Of a stretch of DNA of 64,000 nt, positions 26,264 to 57,934 are shown one piece after another (position 1 is the stretch's first letter; each line of letters opens with the position of its first letter). Under the pieces are notes generated by a model that did not search any database, was not told the DNA's origin, and saw only the letters and a list, made by a program, of their open reading frames with translations. A program made the translations under genes and the position numbers. Source of the stretch: Macrococcoides bohemicum (GTDB lineage: Bacteria > Bacillota > Bacilli > Staphylococcales > Staphylococcaceae); NCBI RefSeq assembly GCF_003259675.1, contig NZ_PZJG01000001.1, forward strand, positions 434,001-498,000, in the 5' to 3' direction.

Positions 26264-26770
26264 ATGGCAATTGTATTAATAGGATTTATGGGTGCAGGAA
26301 AGACAACCATTGGAGAATTGCTTTCTCGTAAAATGGATTTACCATTTATAGATTTGGATAAAGCGATAGTAGAAAAGGAAAATCTGTCGATTCCTGAAAT
26401 ATTCGAAAAATATGGAGCGTCTTATTTTCGTAAATTGGAACATGATGTATTAAAAACATACATAAACAAGAATATGATCATAGCAACTGGGGGAGGTATT
26501 ATTGAAAATCCGAACAATTTGGAAATATTACAGAAAAATAATTTAAATATTTGGGTAGATACGAACATTGATACTGTGTATAATAGAATTGTTGGTGATA
26601 CTAACCGTCCCAATGCTCAGAATAAATCGTTTGAAGAAATTAAAGAGTTGTACAACAGTAGAATTTCACGTTATAATGAAATCGCATACATCAAGGTCTA
26701 TAATGAGCATGATGTAACTTTAAGTGTTCAGGAAATTCACAATCAAATAATGACGGATGATGAAAATTAG
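26264..26770 (+). CDS. aroK: Shikimate kinase
   Basis: A 168-residue P-loop kinase that phosphorylates shikimate in aromatic amino acid synthesis. Walker A GFMGAGKTT, shikimate-binding DLDKAI and FRKLEHD, IATGGGI and the lid NRPNAQ are all present. ATG 26264 has GGGGG 6 nt upstream; a GTG lies one codon earlier. Its final codons and stop form the 5' strand of the glycine riboswitch P1 stem. Confidence 0.92.
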   Translation: MAIVLIGFMGAGKTTIGELLSRKMDLPFIDLDKAIVEKENLSIPEIFEKYGASYFRKLEHDVLKTYINKNMIIATGGGIIENPNNLEILQKNNLNIWVDTNIDTVYNRIVGDTNRPNAQNKSFEEIKELYNSRISRYNEIAYIKVYNEHDVTLSVQEIHNQIMTDDEN

Positions 26771-26887
26771 AGAGAATGAGTGATCATCGCCGAAGGGGCA
26801 AGCTATATAAACTCTCAGGCAAAAGGATAATTTTCGGACGTAACCTGAAGAAATCAACAGGATAGCATTTGCTATGCTGTTTTTTTA
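26762..26887 (+). promoter_or_regulatory. Glycine riboswitch (single aptamer) with terminator
   Basis: Contains the glycine aptamer core CGCCGAAGGGGCAAG (from 26789) and CTCTCAGGCAAAAGGA (from about 26812). P1 is formed by GAAAATTA (26762-26769, the last bases of aroK) and TAATTTTC (26828-26835). Only one aptamer is seen before a terminator hairpin (about 26858-26880) with a T run. Glycine binding is expected to switch on the gcv genes. Confidence 0.9.
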
Positions 26888-50683: not shown

Positions 50684-50764
50684 ATCGTTTTTACTGACTT
50701 CTATGACACATAGCATGATATCTGCAAAAAGTAGTGCAAATATCAATGCTTCATAAATAGTCAT
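50675..50764 (-). CDS. Type I toxin, holin-like small membrane peptide
   Basis: A 29-residue peptide: MTIYEALIFALLFADIMLCV, then IEVSKNDKK. A short polar start, one hydrophobic helix and a lysine-rich tail fit the holin-like toxin family of type I systems (TxpA/BsrG/SprG-like, typically starting MTVYEAL). The ribosome site GAAAGGA lies 7 nt upstream but is paired in the 5' UTR. A minus-strand -10 (TATAAT) is at 50856-50861, and the mRNA should end at the hairpin 50573-50590, whose minus-strand side is followed by TCTTTT. Confidence 0.72.
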   Translation of the reverse strand: MTIYEALIFALLFADIMLCVIEVSKNDKK

Positions 50765-50809
50765 GCTTATCCTTTCTGGGGATAACACCAAAAGTAAAAC
50801 GATAAGCAT
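50763..50809 (-). promoter_or_regulatory. Ribosome-site-sequestering stem in toxin mRNA leader
   Basis: A perfect 9-bp inverted repeat: ATGCTTATC (plus 50763-50771, covering two bases of the start codon and part of the ribosome-site region) and GATAAGCAT (50801-50809), with a 29-nt loop containing the GAAAGGA. In the mRNA this would hide the start region, as in other type I toxin mRNAs that need processing before translation. Confidence 0.6.
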
Positions 50810-50887
50810 CACCCCTTTATGGCTAGCCACCATCATAAACTAAACTACATGATATATTATAATAGGTAAAATTATTTTCTGCGAACG

Positions 50888-52525
50888 TTAGTTCGCGTTG
50901 GATTCATTTAATCTTTCTATTTCTTCATCGATTTGCTGAACATCTATTCGTTCATATAATGGTGAAACAGATGCAAGTCTTTTTGGTAAAACCTCGATTA
51001 CATGCCATTCTAATGTTTCTATTCCCAGCATATCTTTTAGTTTTTCTGCACTAAATGGGAGGAAGGGATTCAATAATTGACTTAAATTTTGAATAATAAA
51101 TACACATGTAGCTAAAGTTTCATCACATTTTTCTTTTTCTTCTTTAAATGTAATCCATGGCTGTTGTTGGTCAAAGTATTTATTATATGTTCTTATAGAT
51201 TCAAATATTAATTCTAACGCTTCTTTAATTTTAGCTTCTTCTATTAATTGCCCAACTTTTTGATAAAGTAAATGTAATTCATTTTTAATACTTTTATCAA
51301 TTTCAGTTTGAGGGACTTCTAAATCATATGATTTTTCCAGAAACTTAAATGTTCTATTAACCAGATTACCAAATGCACCAAGAAGTTCACTGTTATGACT
51401 ATAAATAAATTCTCTAAAAGAAAAATCTGCATCTCGAGATTCTGGTGCATTGATTGTAAAGAAATAGCGAATCATATCAGGGTGATATCGTTCTATTAAA
51501 TCCGGTATCCAGACTGCCCAATTCTGGCTGGTTGATATTTTTCGTTTTTCCAAAGTCATATATTCACTTGATACGATTGATTGTGGCAACCCATCAATAT
51601 TTGCACCCATTAGAATTGATGGCCAAATTACGGTATGAAATGGTATATTGTCTTTTCCATGAATATAATAAGTTTTTGTTTCTTTCATCCAGAATTGTTG
51701 GTAATCCTGATTATTTAGTTTTCCCCATGCTTCTGATGCTGTTAAATATCCAGCTACCGCTTCAATCCAAACATATATCTTTTTATCTTCAAATCCTTTG
51801 ATCGGCACATCAACACCATTAGGTAAATCACGTGTTACAGAACGATCAGGTATACCTTCATTTAAATATCTTTCAGTGAGTGCTAATGCATTTTGACGCC
51901 AGTGATATTTTGTACTTTTTTCTTTAAAATACTTTTCAAGTTGTTCCTGAAGCCTACTAAATTTGTAATATAAATGATTTGTTTCTCTAATTACAGGTTC
52001 GTTGCCACACAATTTACAACGCTTATTGATTAAATCTAGTGGATCGAGTATTGCTGAACATTGATCACACTGATCACCTCGTGCTTTTGCACCACAATTA
52101 GGACACTCACCTTCAACCAATCGATCAGGTAAGAACTGCTGATCATGTTCACAATACGCTTGCTCACTCGTTTTTTGATAGAGCATATCATTATCATATA
52201 ATTTTAAGAATAATGACTTTACGCCGTTATGATGTTCGATTGAATCTGTTCTAGTATATAAATCATAAGTAAAACCTAATTGATTAAAGCAATGTTGAAA
52301 TTCCTGATGATAAATATCTGCAATATCTCGAGTGGTCTTTCCTTCTTGTTTCGCACGTATTGCAATAGGTGTTCCGTTACAATCACTTCCAGACACATAT
52401 AAAACATCTTCACCAGTTTGTCTGTAATATCTTGCAATAATGTCTCCAGGTAATAGTGCTGCGATATGACCAATGTGCAAAGAACCATTTGCATATGGCC
52501 ATGCTCCTCCAATAAATACTGTCAT
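50888..52525 (-). CDS. metS: Methionyl-tRNA synthetase, double zinc-knuckle type
   Basis: A 545-residue class I synthetase. HIGH (17-20) in YANGSLHIGH, KRKIS replacing KMSKS in TLEKRKISTSQNW, and two zinc knuckles (CPNCGAKARGDQCDQC and CKLCGN). It ends after the anticodon domain with no C-terminal EMAPII-like domain, unlike the housekeeping staphylococcal MetRS of about 650 residues. It is therefore probably a second MetRS, comparable to MetRS2 variants giving resistance to MetRS inhibitors. ATG 52525 follows GGGGGAG; the longer frame from 52570 runs through the T-box terminator. Confidence 0.88.
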   Translation of the reverse strand: MTVFIGGAWPYANGSLHIGHIAALLPGDIIARYYRQTGEDVLYVSGSDCNGTPIAIRAKQEGKTTRDIADIYHQEFQHCFNQLGFTYDLYTRTDSIEHHNGVKSLFLKLYDNDMLYQKTSEQAYCEHDQQFLPDRLVEGECPNCGAKARGDQCDQCSAILDPLDLINKRCKLCGNEPVIRETNHLYYKFSRLQEQLEKYFKEKSTKYHWRQNALALTERYLNEGIPDRSVTRDLPNGVDVPIKGFEDKKIYVWIEAVAGYLTASEAWGKLNNQDYQQFWMKETKTYYIHGKDNIPFHTVIWPSILMGANIDGLPQSIVSSEYMTLEKRKISTSQNWAVWIPDLIERYHPDMIRYFFTINAPESRDADFSFREFIYSHNSELLGAFGNLVNRTFKFLEKSYDLEVPQTEIDKSIKNELHLLYQKVGQLIEEAKIKEALELIFESIRTYNKYFDQQQPWITFKEEKEKCDETLATCVFIIQNLSQLLNPFLPFSAEKLKDMLGIETLEWHVIEVLPKRLASVSPLYERIDVQQIDEEIERLNESNAN

Positions 52526-52917: not shown

Positions 52918-53040
52918 GAAATTGGTGAAACCCCAAATTCGGCAGGCAAAATCAATCTGAAATTGGTAGAACTCCAAATTCGAACTAACAATTCTTATCG
53001 AAATTGGAGATGCGCACATCAACTTTAATTTTTACTATCA
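52918..53040. repeat. Three 41-bp tandem units with dyad symmetry
   Basis: GAAATTGG begins at 52918, 52959 and 53000, an exact 41-bp period. Units 1 and 2 share about 25 conserved bases, GAAATTGG-N7-CCAAATTCG, an inverted repeat, followed by 16 variable bases; unit 3 keeps only the first half. It sits between the divergent metS T-box promoter and the fusB-like promoter. This and the T-box fill the 560-nt gap between those genes. Confidence 0.65.
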
Positions 53041-53089
53041 TTTTTATATTTATGCTATACTCAAATCATTAAAGTGAGGTATAGATATA

Positions 53090-53719
53090 ATGATAAAAGC
53101 ATATGAATTTGCGCAAGTTATGAATAATGTGAATCAGTTACTTAAGATTTATAAAACAAATGATCCAACGACGAATAAAGCACAAAAAAATATTATATTA
53201 GACGAAATTCGAGCGATTTACATTGTGAATGGCATAGATGCTAGTGAGTCTATTACTAAACTTGATGATATTCGGCTTTCCAAGACGAAAGCTGCTATGA
53301 TGCTTTCAGAAATGAAACAGTTTGTAGAACCTTTTGAAATGCCTTCAGCTAAACAAGTAGAGAAGTTATTCAAAAAGGTTAAAAAATTAAACACACCACC
53401 AAGTGATCAATATGATCTTCAGATGATGAGCTATCTTGGATGGAATGACTATTCTGCAAATCGTAAGTATATTGTCTATAAGGATGATAAGGGTGCTTTT
53501 CAGAGTGTCTACGGAGAACTAGCTCCAACCAAAGTGAAGGGATTTTGTTCGATTTGTCAGCATGAATCTGATGTTTCTTTATTCTTAAATAAGACAAAAG
53601 CGAATAGTGACGGAACATATACGAAAAAGGGTGACTATATTTGTCATGATAGTAATGTGTGTAATCAACATTTAGACGATATCGATAAACTATATCATTT
53701 CATACAAAAAATAAAGTAA
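53090..53719 (+). CDS. FusB/FusC-family EF-G-binding protein
   Basis: A 209-residue homologue of the staphylococcal FusB/FusC fusidic-acid-resistance proteins (usually 212-215). The N-terminal helical bundle (1-80) is followed by the domain with VEPFEMPSAKQVEKLFKKVK, YLGWNDYSANRKYIVY and a zinc finger: GFCSICQHESDVSLF, KKGDYICHDS and a cysteine/histidine in NVCNQHL. The family binds EF-G and releases it from fusidic-acid-stalled ribosomes. The zinc ligands and C-terminal surface are conserved by eye. GAGGT lies before the ATG. Resistance itself is not demonstrated. Confidence 0.85.
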   Translation: MIKAYEFAQVMNNVNQLLKIYKTNDPTTNKAQKNIILDEIRAIYIVNGIDASESITKLDDIRLSKTKAAMMLSEMKQFVEPFEMPSAKQVEKLFKKVKKLNTPPSDQYDLQMMSYLGWNDYSANRKYIVYKDDKGAFQSVYGELAPTKVKGFCSICQHESDVSLFLNKTKANSDGTYTKKGDYICHDSNVCNQHLDDIDKLYHFIQKIK

Positions 53720-56133: not shown

Positions 56134-56166
56134 AATCTATCCAAAGTTTTGGATAGATTTTTTTAT
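56134..56166 (+). terminator. Terminator after the DJ-1-like gene
   Basis: AATCTATCCAA / TTGGATAGATT stem with a short loop and TTTTTTT. Confidence 0.85.
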
Positions 56167-56258
56167 TTAATTACTGTCATATTAAGTTAATTATATAATA
56201 TATATAATTAAGTGTTAAACTATGGTAATATCAATTTAGCACGCGAGGAGGGATGAAG

Positions 56259-56440
56259 ATGACTATCACAAAACGTATAATAACTTCTATATATAATTAT
56301 TTTTCTTAGTGCTGCAGGCATATTATATTCGTATCGATCAATAATAAATAATGAGGTGAAACAATATGAATTTTGGAGACAAACTATTTATTTTATTTTT
56401 AAATGCATGCTGGATGTTTTTCGTTTATTATTTGGTAAGA
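56259..56440 (+). pseudogene. Frameshifted small membrane protein gene
   Basis: ATG 56259 follows an excellent GAGGAGGGATGAAG site but the frame (MTITKRIITSIYNYFS) stops at 56309. A shift in the TATATATAATTATTTTT tract continues as IIIFLSAAGILYSYRSIINN and on into the next gene's region. It looks like a small N-terminally anchored membrane protein disrupted by an indel in an AT tract. Identity unknown. Confidence 0.4.
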
Positions 56441-56575
56441 GTTCATGATAATGAGTTTTTATTTTATTTACCGTTTATGATACCCGCAAGCTTAATCGTT
56501 ATTTGTTTTATCATGTTGATTCAATTAAGAGATGAAACGACAAAAGGTGTAAAAGTAAGAGAGTTTGAAGAATAG
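56366..56575 (+). CDS. Small two-helix membrane protein
   Basis: A 69-residue protein with two transmembrane segments (about 6-24 and 32-52) and a charged C-terminal tail KGVKVREFEE. GAGGTG is 7 nt before the ATG. Not recognised. Lies just downstream of the frameshifted membrane gene and may have been its partner. Confidence 0.55.
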   Translation: MNFGDKLFILFLNACWMFFVYYLVRVHDNEFLFYLPFMIPASLIVICFIMLIQLRDETTKGVKVREFEE

Positions 56576-56596
56576 TTTATTATTGACATCTTTAAG

Positions 56597-56625
56597 TGTA
56601 AAATCATGTTATGATAAATTTTACA
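56597..56625 (+). promoter_or_regulatory. Candidate operator before the MFS gene
   Basis: Perfect 8-bp inverted repeat TGTAAAAT (56597-56604) and ATTTTACA (56618-56625), centred on TATGAT and preceded by TTGACA at 56583. Operator-like; the regulator is unknown. Confidence 0.4.
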
Positions 56626-56719
56626 TACTAATAACTAAATCATCACATTGACCGATAGCGATTAATCTGAATATTCTTTATAATTATTGTTAAATATAAT
56701 AATAATGTGGAGAGAAAAT

Positions 56720-57892
56720 ATGTCTAGAATTTATTACAATATTCTTTTAATCCAGCTTTCATTTAGTGCTGGATTTATTTTTTATAATGTTTCAATTACA
56801 TATTTCATTTATCAATTAACACAATCAACTTTTCTAGCAAGTTTAACAACATTTTTAAATCTCATTGCTAAAATGATAAGTAAGTTTTTTATTCAAAAAT
56901 TCACTCAGAAATATACGATTAAACAAATATTATTAATAAATACATCTGCACAGATGATATTTTTATTATTGATGTTAGTGTTTATGAATTTAAAAGTATT
57001 ATTAATCATATATATTCTTACTACTTTAATTTCTTTTTTTAATGGCATGTTCTATCCATTAAAAAACACTTTAATAAAAAATGTATTTGATGAAAATGAA
57101 GTCGCAAAAGTCATTGCAGGAATCTCTTCATTCGACCAGGCAATTATGTTTTCTGGATATATCATTGCAGGATGGATACTCGCAATGACAAATGTGGTTT
57201 TTGTTATGTCAATTACTCTTTTGTTTTTCGTTATTGCTTTTATTAACATTTTTATGATTCCAATTAATAAAAAAGAGTTGATTGAATTACAACATCGAAC
57301 GACTACTAGTATAGTTGAAGGGTATCGATTATTGTTTAGTTTTCCTGTATTAAGGCAATTAACATTTATTGAATTTATTGAAGCCTTAATTGGGACAATT
57401 TGGATTGGTGCGATTCAATTAGCGTTTATAGAAGAGTTTTTGAATGAGGATACATCCTGGTGGGGTTACTTTAATGCTGCATACTTTGCAGGAACGATGA
57501 TAGGAGCAATTGTAATATATAAATTTAAGAAGTTATCAACGCTAAATTTATATACCATTATCATTTGCCAAATCGTATATGTCATAACGGTCATAATTTT
57601 TGGTACTATAAAAATACCTGTTATTTCTGTTTTGCTAATTTTTATTATGGGACTCGTATTTCAAACTAAAGATATTTTGCAGGAAACACTAATCATTTCA
57701 AAGATCCCAAAAGAACATATCACTCTACTTACAGCATTTAAATCAACGATTATAGAATTTGGATATTTGATTTCAATTATATCAATTGGAGTTTACGCAG
57801 AAGTAGTTCCTATTCAGTGGGTGTATATCACTTCAGGGATAGTATATATGTTATGCATTTATTTAATGTTAAAATTGAAAAGATTACTTTGA
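56720..57892 (+). CDS. MFS transporter
   Basis: A 390-residue major facilitator with about 11-12 hydrophobic segments. N-terminal half LIQLSFSAGFIFYNVSITYF and a cytoplasmic loop near residue 205 (QHRTTTSIVEGYRLLFSFPVL) resemble drug or siderophore-type MFS exporters. Substrate not inferable. ATG 56720, 5-6 nt after GGAGAG, is preferred over an in-frame start at 56687. Confidence 0.78.
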   Translation: MSRIYYNILLIQLSFSAGFIFYNVSITYFIYQLTQSTFLASLTTFLNLIAKMISKFFIQKFTQKYTIKQILLINTSAQMIFLLLMLVFMNLKVLLIIYILTTLISFFNGMFYPLKNTLIKNVFDENEVAKVIAGISSFDQAIMFSGYIIAGWILAMTNVVFVMSITLLFFVIAFINIFMIPINKKELIELQHRTTTSIVEGYRLLFSFPVLRQLTFIEFIEALIGTIWIGAIQLAFIEEFLNEDTSWWGYFNAAYFAGTMIGAIVIYKFKKLSTLNLYTIIICQIVYVITVIIFGTIKIPVISVLLIFIMGLVFQTKDILQETLIISKIPKEHITLLTAFKSTIIEFGYLISIISIGVYAEVVPIQWVYITSGIVYMLCIYLMLKLKRLL

Positions 57893-57934
57893 AAAAATCA
57901 CCTCAATCGACTTTAGATTGAGGTGACTTTTTTG
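57893..57934. terminator. Bidirectional terminator, MFS / CHAP gene
   Basis: TCACCTCAATC / GATTGAGGTGA stem, A run before and T run after. The CHAP gene stop (57903-57905) lies in the stem. Confidence 0.85.

Follow-up and report, generated by a model that had tools for sequence, protein, structure and literature searches.

A 41-bp-register intergenic repeat in Macrococcus resembles staphylococcal STAR elements and may provide recombination joints for gene modules

Between a methionyl-tRNA synthetase gene and a divergently oriented fusB-like gene of Macrococcoides bohemicum (the genus is called Macrococcus here), short inverted-repeat units follow one another at a regular distance. The question raised by this locus is whether these units control their two neighbors or belong to something with a much wider distribution. 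The initial annotation of this DNA preferred an operator for the fusB-like gene and/or the synthetase gene and named a dispersed repeat as the alternative. We conclude that the array is probably a short, partly decayed array of an intergenic repeat that occurs throughout the genus.

The array between metS and the fusB-like gene

The window is the whole stretch of DNA that was analyzed, 64,000 nucleotides in length. The features of the locus, by position in the window, are the following.

50888..52525, minus strand: methionyl-tRNA synthetase gene (metS), identified by protein profile; missing here in relative L043
52576..52800, minus strand: T-box leader of the methionyl-tRNA synthetase gene, between gene and array (RF00230, 84 bits, below the gathering score of 93, E 9.1e-19)
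52918..52940, plus strand: dyad unit 1, GAAATTGG-TGAAACC-CCAAATTC (sequence-profile match, 30.4 bits, E 8.2e-7)
52941..52958, plus strand: spacer 1, 18 bp, with the A-tract typical of the repeat family (GGCAGGCAAAATCAATCT), from array comparison
52959..52981, plus strand: dyad unit 2, GAAATTGG-TAGAACT-CCAAATTC (sequence-profile match, 19.9 bits, E 0.0017)
52982..52999, plus strand: spacer 2, 18 bp, read from the sequence
53000..53007, plus strand: remnant of a third unit, left arm alone, read from the sequence; no profile match
53053..53061, plus strand: extended -10-like sequence TGCTATACT of the fusB-like gene, read in the sequence and absent from the promoter-scan list
53090..53719, plus strand: gene for a FusB/FusC-family EF-G-binding protein (best 251.5 bits)

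The 41-bp register is exact, with GAAATTGG starting at positions 52918, 52959, and 53000. Counted on one strand, GAAATTGG occurs 4 times per 64 kb against about 2.6 expected; pairs of it 41 bp apart arose in 0 of 60 simulated windows, and the arrangement GAAATTGG-N(5-9)-CCAAATTC, found twice within the window, was present in 0 of 100 shuffles. The register described by the initial annotation thus stands. Its claim of three dyads is wrong, because the unit at 53000 consists of GAAATTGG followed by AGATGCGCACATC and has no right arm, which leaves two dyads and a left arm; the same left-arm half-unit is present in M. epidermidis (L041) and M. goetzii (L042). CCAAATTCG is an imperfect complement to GAAATTGG, with an A.A mismatch at the fourth pair. 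The remark that 41 bp corresponds to about four helical turns holds for the spacing but not as a local trait, since the register is common to the whole repeat family.

Several features of the surroundings are recorded here in their own right. The product of the fusB-like gene scores below the NCBI cut-offs of four named resistance proteins. Its -10-like sequence is shared with L041, L042, and L043 and is directly followed by a near-palindrome, TCATTAAAGTGA (53066-53077), of which TCACTAAAGTGA is a perfect version in M. goetzii L042 and in TMW 2.2395 (L043); it is a candidate site for local control. The methionyl-tRNA synthetase of the window scores higher with NCBI model PRK00133.1 than with PRK12267.1, and a strong match to the Listeria sRNA rli28 (RF01492; 83.7 bits, gathering 45) sits directly downstream of its gene at 50701-50871 on the minus strand. 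Elsewhere in the window, a glycine riboswitch (RF00504, 63.2 bits) lies at 26757-26840 on the plus strand.

Distribution in the genus and the operator question

In the M. bohemicum genome, seven copies with at most one mismatch are present at five loci, and the reversed control gave none. A sequence profile built from 54 units returned 14 matches in the same genome (150 of 676 candidates scored), which are seven units counted on both strands at five loci. A scan allowing three mismatches found 21 matches versus 16 in its control, and seven of the 21 (L012, L015-L020) were discarded as chance; the copy number is based on the stricter count and the profile because of this high background. At the four loci other than the fusB-like one, copies follow a glutamate-dehydrogenase-like gene with its terminator, a lumazine-synthase-like gene, and a lactonase-family gene, and the last lies near a truncated gene (labels read from translations, except for the lactonase, which is PF10282 in an orthologue).

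All nine Macrococcus genomes carry the repeat, with 7 to 24 copies per genome at one mismatch or fewer (none with the reversed pattern) and 11 to 49 profile matches per genome, both strands counted. Outside the genus, the one-mismatch search gave a single match in each of 2 of 51 other relatives, where the control matched once in 1 of 51, and the profile gave one match each in 5 of 99 family genomes (E 1.8e-4 in G093 and 0.008-0.009 in the other four). M. brunensis and Jeotgalicoccus yielded no repeat copies and one control match each. Nine exact matches in a collection of viral contigs, one of which (L059) was examined further, are taken as chance. Searches against plasmids (two queries) and phages (one query) returned no repeat match and ran without a positive control for repetitive queries. 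No description of this Macrococcus repeat was found among the papers listed in searches of open-licence literature. Both arm strings occur in 88 papers, and the 15 of these that were listed have titles on unrelated subjects.

These counts, seven copies at five loci of one genome and a presence in nine of nine genomes of the genus, support the dispersed repeat named as the alternative by the initial annotation. The genome-wide count that it proposed as a check is ambiguous as a number, with seven units rather than hundreds, but four of the five loci are not divergent promoters. Nor are the units restricted to one or a few regulated promoters. Even in the single genome they have unrelated neighbors, and in the relatives they accompany many other genes.

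A local operator, in which a repressor or activator bound along one DNA face of the dyads would control the fusB-like gene and/or metS, is accordingly judged improbable, despite near-perfect dyads in 41-bp register, the nearer of which ends 109 bp ahead of the start codon of the fusB-like gene. The array is retained in the four species with a close fusB-like orthologue (88-100% identical), which counts in favor of an operator, but its unit number ranges from two to five between them (2, 3, 5, and 4 units), and arrays of the identical kind, in a register of 40 to 42 bp, adjoin unrelated genes in all nine genomes. Furthermore, the fetched stretches around more distant fusB-like genes, in M. brunensis (L044), Jeotgalicoccus (L045), six Staphylococcus records (L046-L051), and G005 (L093), contain no unit with three or fewer mismatches, and the array of TMW 2.2395 has no metS beside it. 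The operator preferred by the initial annotation was rejected as the main reading on the copies beside unrelated genes and the locus that lacks metS. The fetched stretch of G003, which has a fusB remnant only, contains no array.

The gene order at this locus differs between relatives. TMW 2.2395 has a dehydrogenase gene, a terminator, the array, and the fusB-like gene, with metS absent between them; the window and M. goetzii have metS interposed, and M. epidermidis carries two further genes between metS and the array, one of the MerR family and a small one that reads as membrane-protein-like. The tandem order of TMW 2.2395 looks ancestral. Since in this one relative metS is missing and the array follows a terminator, the divergent-promoter setting of the window is probably secondary, and the array was probably in place before metS arrived.

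Unit structure and comparison with known repeats

The array set comprises 47 listed arrays of one to nine units each, 161 units in all, and 38 of the 47 are multi-unit. It is incomplete: at least four more arrays or units lie beyond it, at G007:C1:379516, 1587134, and 82487 and at L140:13990. L042 and L043 were omitted as duplicates of L064 and L069, and L041 represents the fusB locus of G008. Successive units within the listed arrays are 41 bp apart in 100 of 114 instances, 42 bp in 12, and 40 bp in 2. The commonest right arm is CCAATTTC (105 of 161 listed units), and the CCAAATTC of the window occurs in 23. With centers of 3 to 12 bp allowed, a hand count of 73 perfect-arm copies from the genus gave 7 bp in 72 and 8 bp in the remaining one.

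Among 54 nonredundant units, majority identity is 96% and 94% in the two arms, 51% in the center, and 56% in the spacer, and the conservation of the arms is partly built in because arrays were located by their arms. The spacers (100 of 18 bp) have a weak consensus that opens with G and purines, has its A-tract at positions 8-11, and closes with T or C, and the unit is therefore directional. It is approximately 41 bp long and consists of the dyad GAAATTGG-N7-CCAATTTC, after which there usually come G, a run rich in purines, the A-tract, and finally T or C. Centers and spacers are alike within arrays (84% and 81%) and unlike between arrays (39% and 35%), which fits local duplication, and the number of units probably changes by slippage or unequal recombination. 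As many units are orthologous, the independent events are far fewer than 161.

If the arms were maintained as the stem of a transcript, changes in one arm should be matched in the other. Compensated changes at the eight arm pairs number 0 among the 161 listed units, and the fourth pair is by itself broken in 57. When a 10-pair stem was scored for covariation on the alignment of 54 units, it fell below all 500 shuffles; five two-sided changes, fewer than in shuffles, affect its two central pairs and none the arms. As RNA, the window array shows no better folding than its shuffles do (z -0.84 and -1.07), and this, with the lack of compensation, weakens the hairpin wording of the initial annotation. 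We therefore regard as unlikely the idea that transcribed stem-loops stabilize 3' ends or act as bidirectional terminators. It would account for the frequent position of arrays after genes and terminators and for the folding of three relatives' arrays well below shuffles (z -4.0 to -7.1, five strands). It would also accommodate L022 (1493-1531), L026, and L030, where a terminator-like hairpin with a T run, between convergent genes, has a repeat unit as its upper stem and is composed in L022 as AAAAGCGT-dyad-ACGCTTTT.

The preservation of arm sequence in the absence of compensated pairs suggests recognition of duplex DNA rather than a hairpin. From the alignments, we infer that the half-sites would be recognized in the duplex by a putative protein. 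The constancy of the two half-sites would likely reflect a dimeric host protein, at a nucleoid- or boundary-type site. Operators bound by dimers, and nucleoid or boundary sites, have conserved inverted half-sites, a center of fixed length, and regular helical spacing. The Macrococcus repeat shares all three features with them; it differs from them in having tens of arrays beside unrelated genes, and the analyses run yielded no matching known regulator.

Extragenic palindromes of the REP/BIME type are short dyads between genes, single or clustered, associated with RAYT transposases. The Macrococcus repeat is likewise a short intergenic dyad found singly or in clusters, but its units stand head to tail in 41-bp register, its arms are not maintained by compensation, and a Y1/RAYT-type transposase domain (PF01797) is found in only one of the nine genomes. 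A selfish element of the REP or MITE type, mobilized by a transposase acting in trans, would explain a single dispersed, intergenic family at many sites. We give this explanation little chance, since in addition to the rarity of the domain, many positions are kept between species rather than scattered anew, the plasmid and phage queries mentioned above returned nothing, and an unsystematic look revealed no clean single-unit insertion with a corresponding empty site. Mobility through RAYT was rejected on PF01797, which the M. bohemicum genome (G000) lacks. Two other classes were set aside as well. A CRISPR array would have unique spacers, and here spacers repeat within arrays; DNA uptake sequences are short and number in the hundreds to thousands in a genome, far more than the 7 to 24 counted in this genus.

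The closest resemblance is to the STAR elements of Staphylococcus aureus, whose regions presumably contain the GAAATTGG/CCAATTTC arms. In the genus labeled g3, which we take to be Staphylococcus, 12 of 84 genomes have these arms around a center of 3 to 12 bp (hand count), and the five genomes richest in copies have them 4 to 15 times around 3 to 4 bp. A STAR motif is nearby in 10 of 15 fetched g3 loci (of 45 matches), within about 30 bp in nine. The g3 repeats and the Macrococcus repeat thus have identical arms. By the description of STAR in PMC3532100, both are intergenic, tandem at several loci, variable in unit number, and provided with locus-specific spacers; in Macrococcus, this corresponds to the 47 listed arrays, the differing unit numbers at the fusB-like locus, and spacers that are 81% alike within a locus and 35% between loci. 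The Macrococcus repeat differs from STAR in its 41-bp unit, its 7-bp center, and its lack of the STAR core TNTGTTGNGGCCC, which has three matches in the nine Macrococcus genomes versus five for the reversed control. Furthermore, its sites are conserved between species, whereas PMC3532100 reports that no STAR neighborhood was common to two species.

We did not file the Macrococcus repeat as STAR because the defining core fails; it evolves like STAR and has a dyad in common with it. True homology, with the GC-rich core lost in Macrococcus, is possible although doubtful. Identical 8-bp arms, tandem arrays of variable number, locus-specific spacers, and the STAR motif near two-thirds of the fetched g3 loci argue for it. 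Against it stand the absent core, a center of 7 rather than 3 to 4 bp, a unit of 41 rather than about 57 to 61 bp, spacers without similarity by eye, and the restriction of the arms to a minority of g3 genomes. PMC3532100 describes the function and origin of STAR elements as unknown, and a term search of its main text gave no match to Macrococcus or to the arms. According to PMC2873960, the STAR-like segments of the S. aureus transcript Teg12 contain palindromic repeats.

Array sites and gene modules

Assigned by their long flanking genes, the 47 listed arrays lie in 23 convergent, 19 tandem, and 5 divergent gaps; 13 of them, scored as genic from overlying short open reading frames, were reassigned by hand (6 convergent, 7 tandem). 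The 36 gaps of the window are 6 convergent, 23 tandem, and 7 divergent. The convergent excess (23/47 versus 6/36) has a p value of 0.003, which becomes 0.14 (6/15) when orthologues are merged into 15 distinct loci grouped by hand.

Arrays have kept their chromosomal positions as species diverged, and the number of units differs between species. The site at the lactonase gene holds an array in all nine genomes of the genus, with one to nine units. The arrays are intergenic, in many cases downstream of a gene, and occur at the borders of gene modules that are gained and lost.

Among these modules, the clearest is in G007, where two arrays enclose a DUF805 gene together with three genes of the dihydroxyacetone-kinase type (Dak1, Dak2, and EIIA-man domains). 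The module is flanked by AbgT-family and TauE-family genes, and G004 aligns there at 97-98%. G005 is without the dihydroxyacetone-kinase module, and its flanking alignments meet at one two-unit array: in the comparison of G005 with G007, the left alignment (76%) stops within the five-unit array of G007, and the right one (85%) begins 8 bp before the single unit of G007. G006 (L084, 2271-3300) has a decayed module with an internal deletion, again between two arrays. Arrays are also present at both sides of a six-gene cluster in G005 and G006, and the interval beside this cluster differs in content among G005, G006, and G007.

In M. bohemicum, three of the five loci show a gene gain or loss relative to G008 that has one of its ends at the array or close to it; of about 62 other junctions in the window, 5 to 7 have a break (p 0.01-0.02). 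The events are few, and the 5 to 7 breaks are a hand count that depends on how the stretch 56164-57928 is divided. The array at the fusB-like gene shows no break relative to G001. At L006 (1387-1455), a gene start reaches an early stop just before the array, where G001 (L029) and G008 (L083) have an open reading frame of about 314 amino acids in its place, so that a deletion here ends at an array.

Based on the one clean case, we propose that the arrays may serve as recombination joints for modules. They may cause the gene changes or merely occupy sites that tolerate them. Minimal mobile elements and repeat-bounded islets of Neisseria are gene modules that differ within conserved flanks; the Macrococcus modules likewise differ between species inside conserved flanks, here in a species-level comparison, and unlike the Neisseria elements they are bounded by 41-bp arrays. 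A more specific mechanism, in which the dyads would be the core sites of a DNA-rearranging system and the arrays would bound cassettes gained and lost at fixed joints genus-wide, is suggested by analogy and seems to us very improbable. Like tyrosine-recombinase sites, the array has inverted half-sites around a 7-bp center of nearly fixed length that is shared within arrays and different between them. A search for PF00589 gave at least two strong matches (E <1e-43) in each of the nine genomes, which we take to be XerC and XerD, plus scattered weaker ones. A private tyrosine recombinase was rejected on these unclustered matches, among which a third universal one may be present.

Overall, we favor the interpretation that the element is a novel family of STAR-like repeats and that its arrays function as recombination joints. 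Identical arms in a second family, from a sister genus, that lacks the core and has another center length and period single out the dyad as the common part, and "what binds GAAATTGG...CCAATTTC?" becomes a testable question. If the arrays are joints for the exchange of gene modules, they would help explain gene turnover in macrococci.
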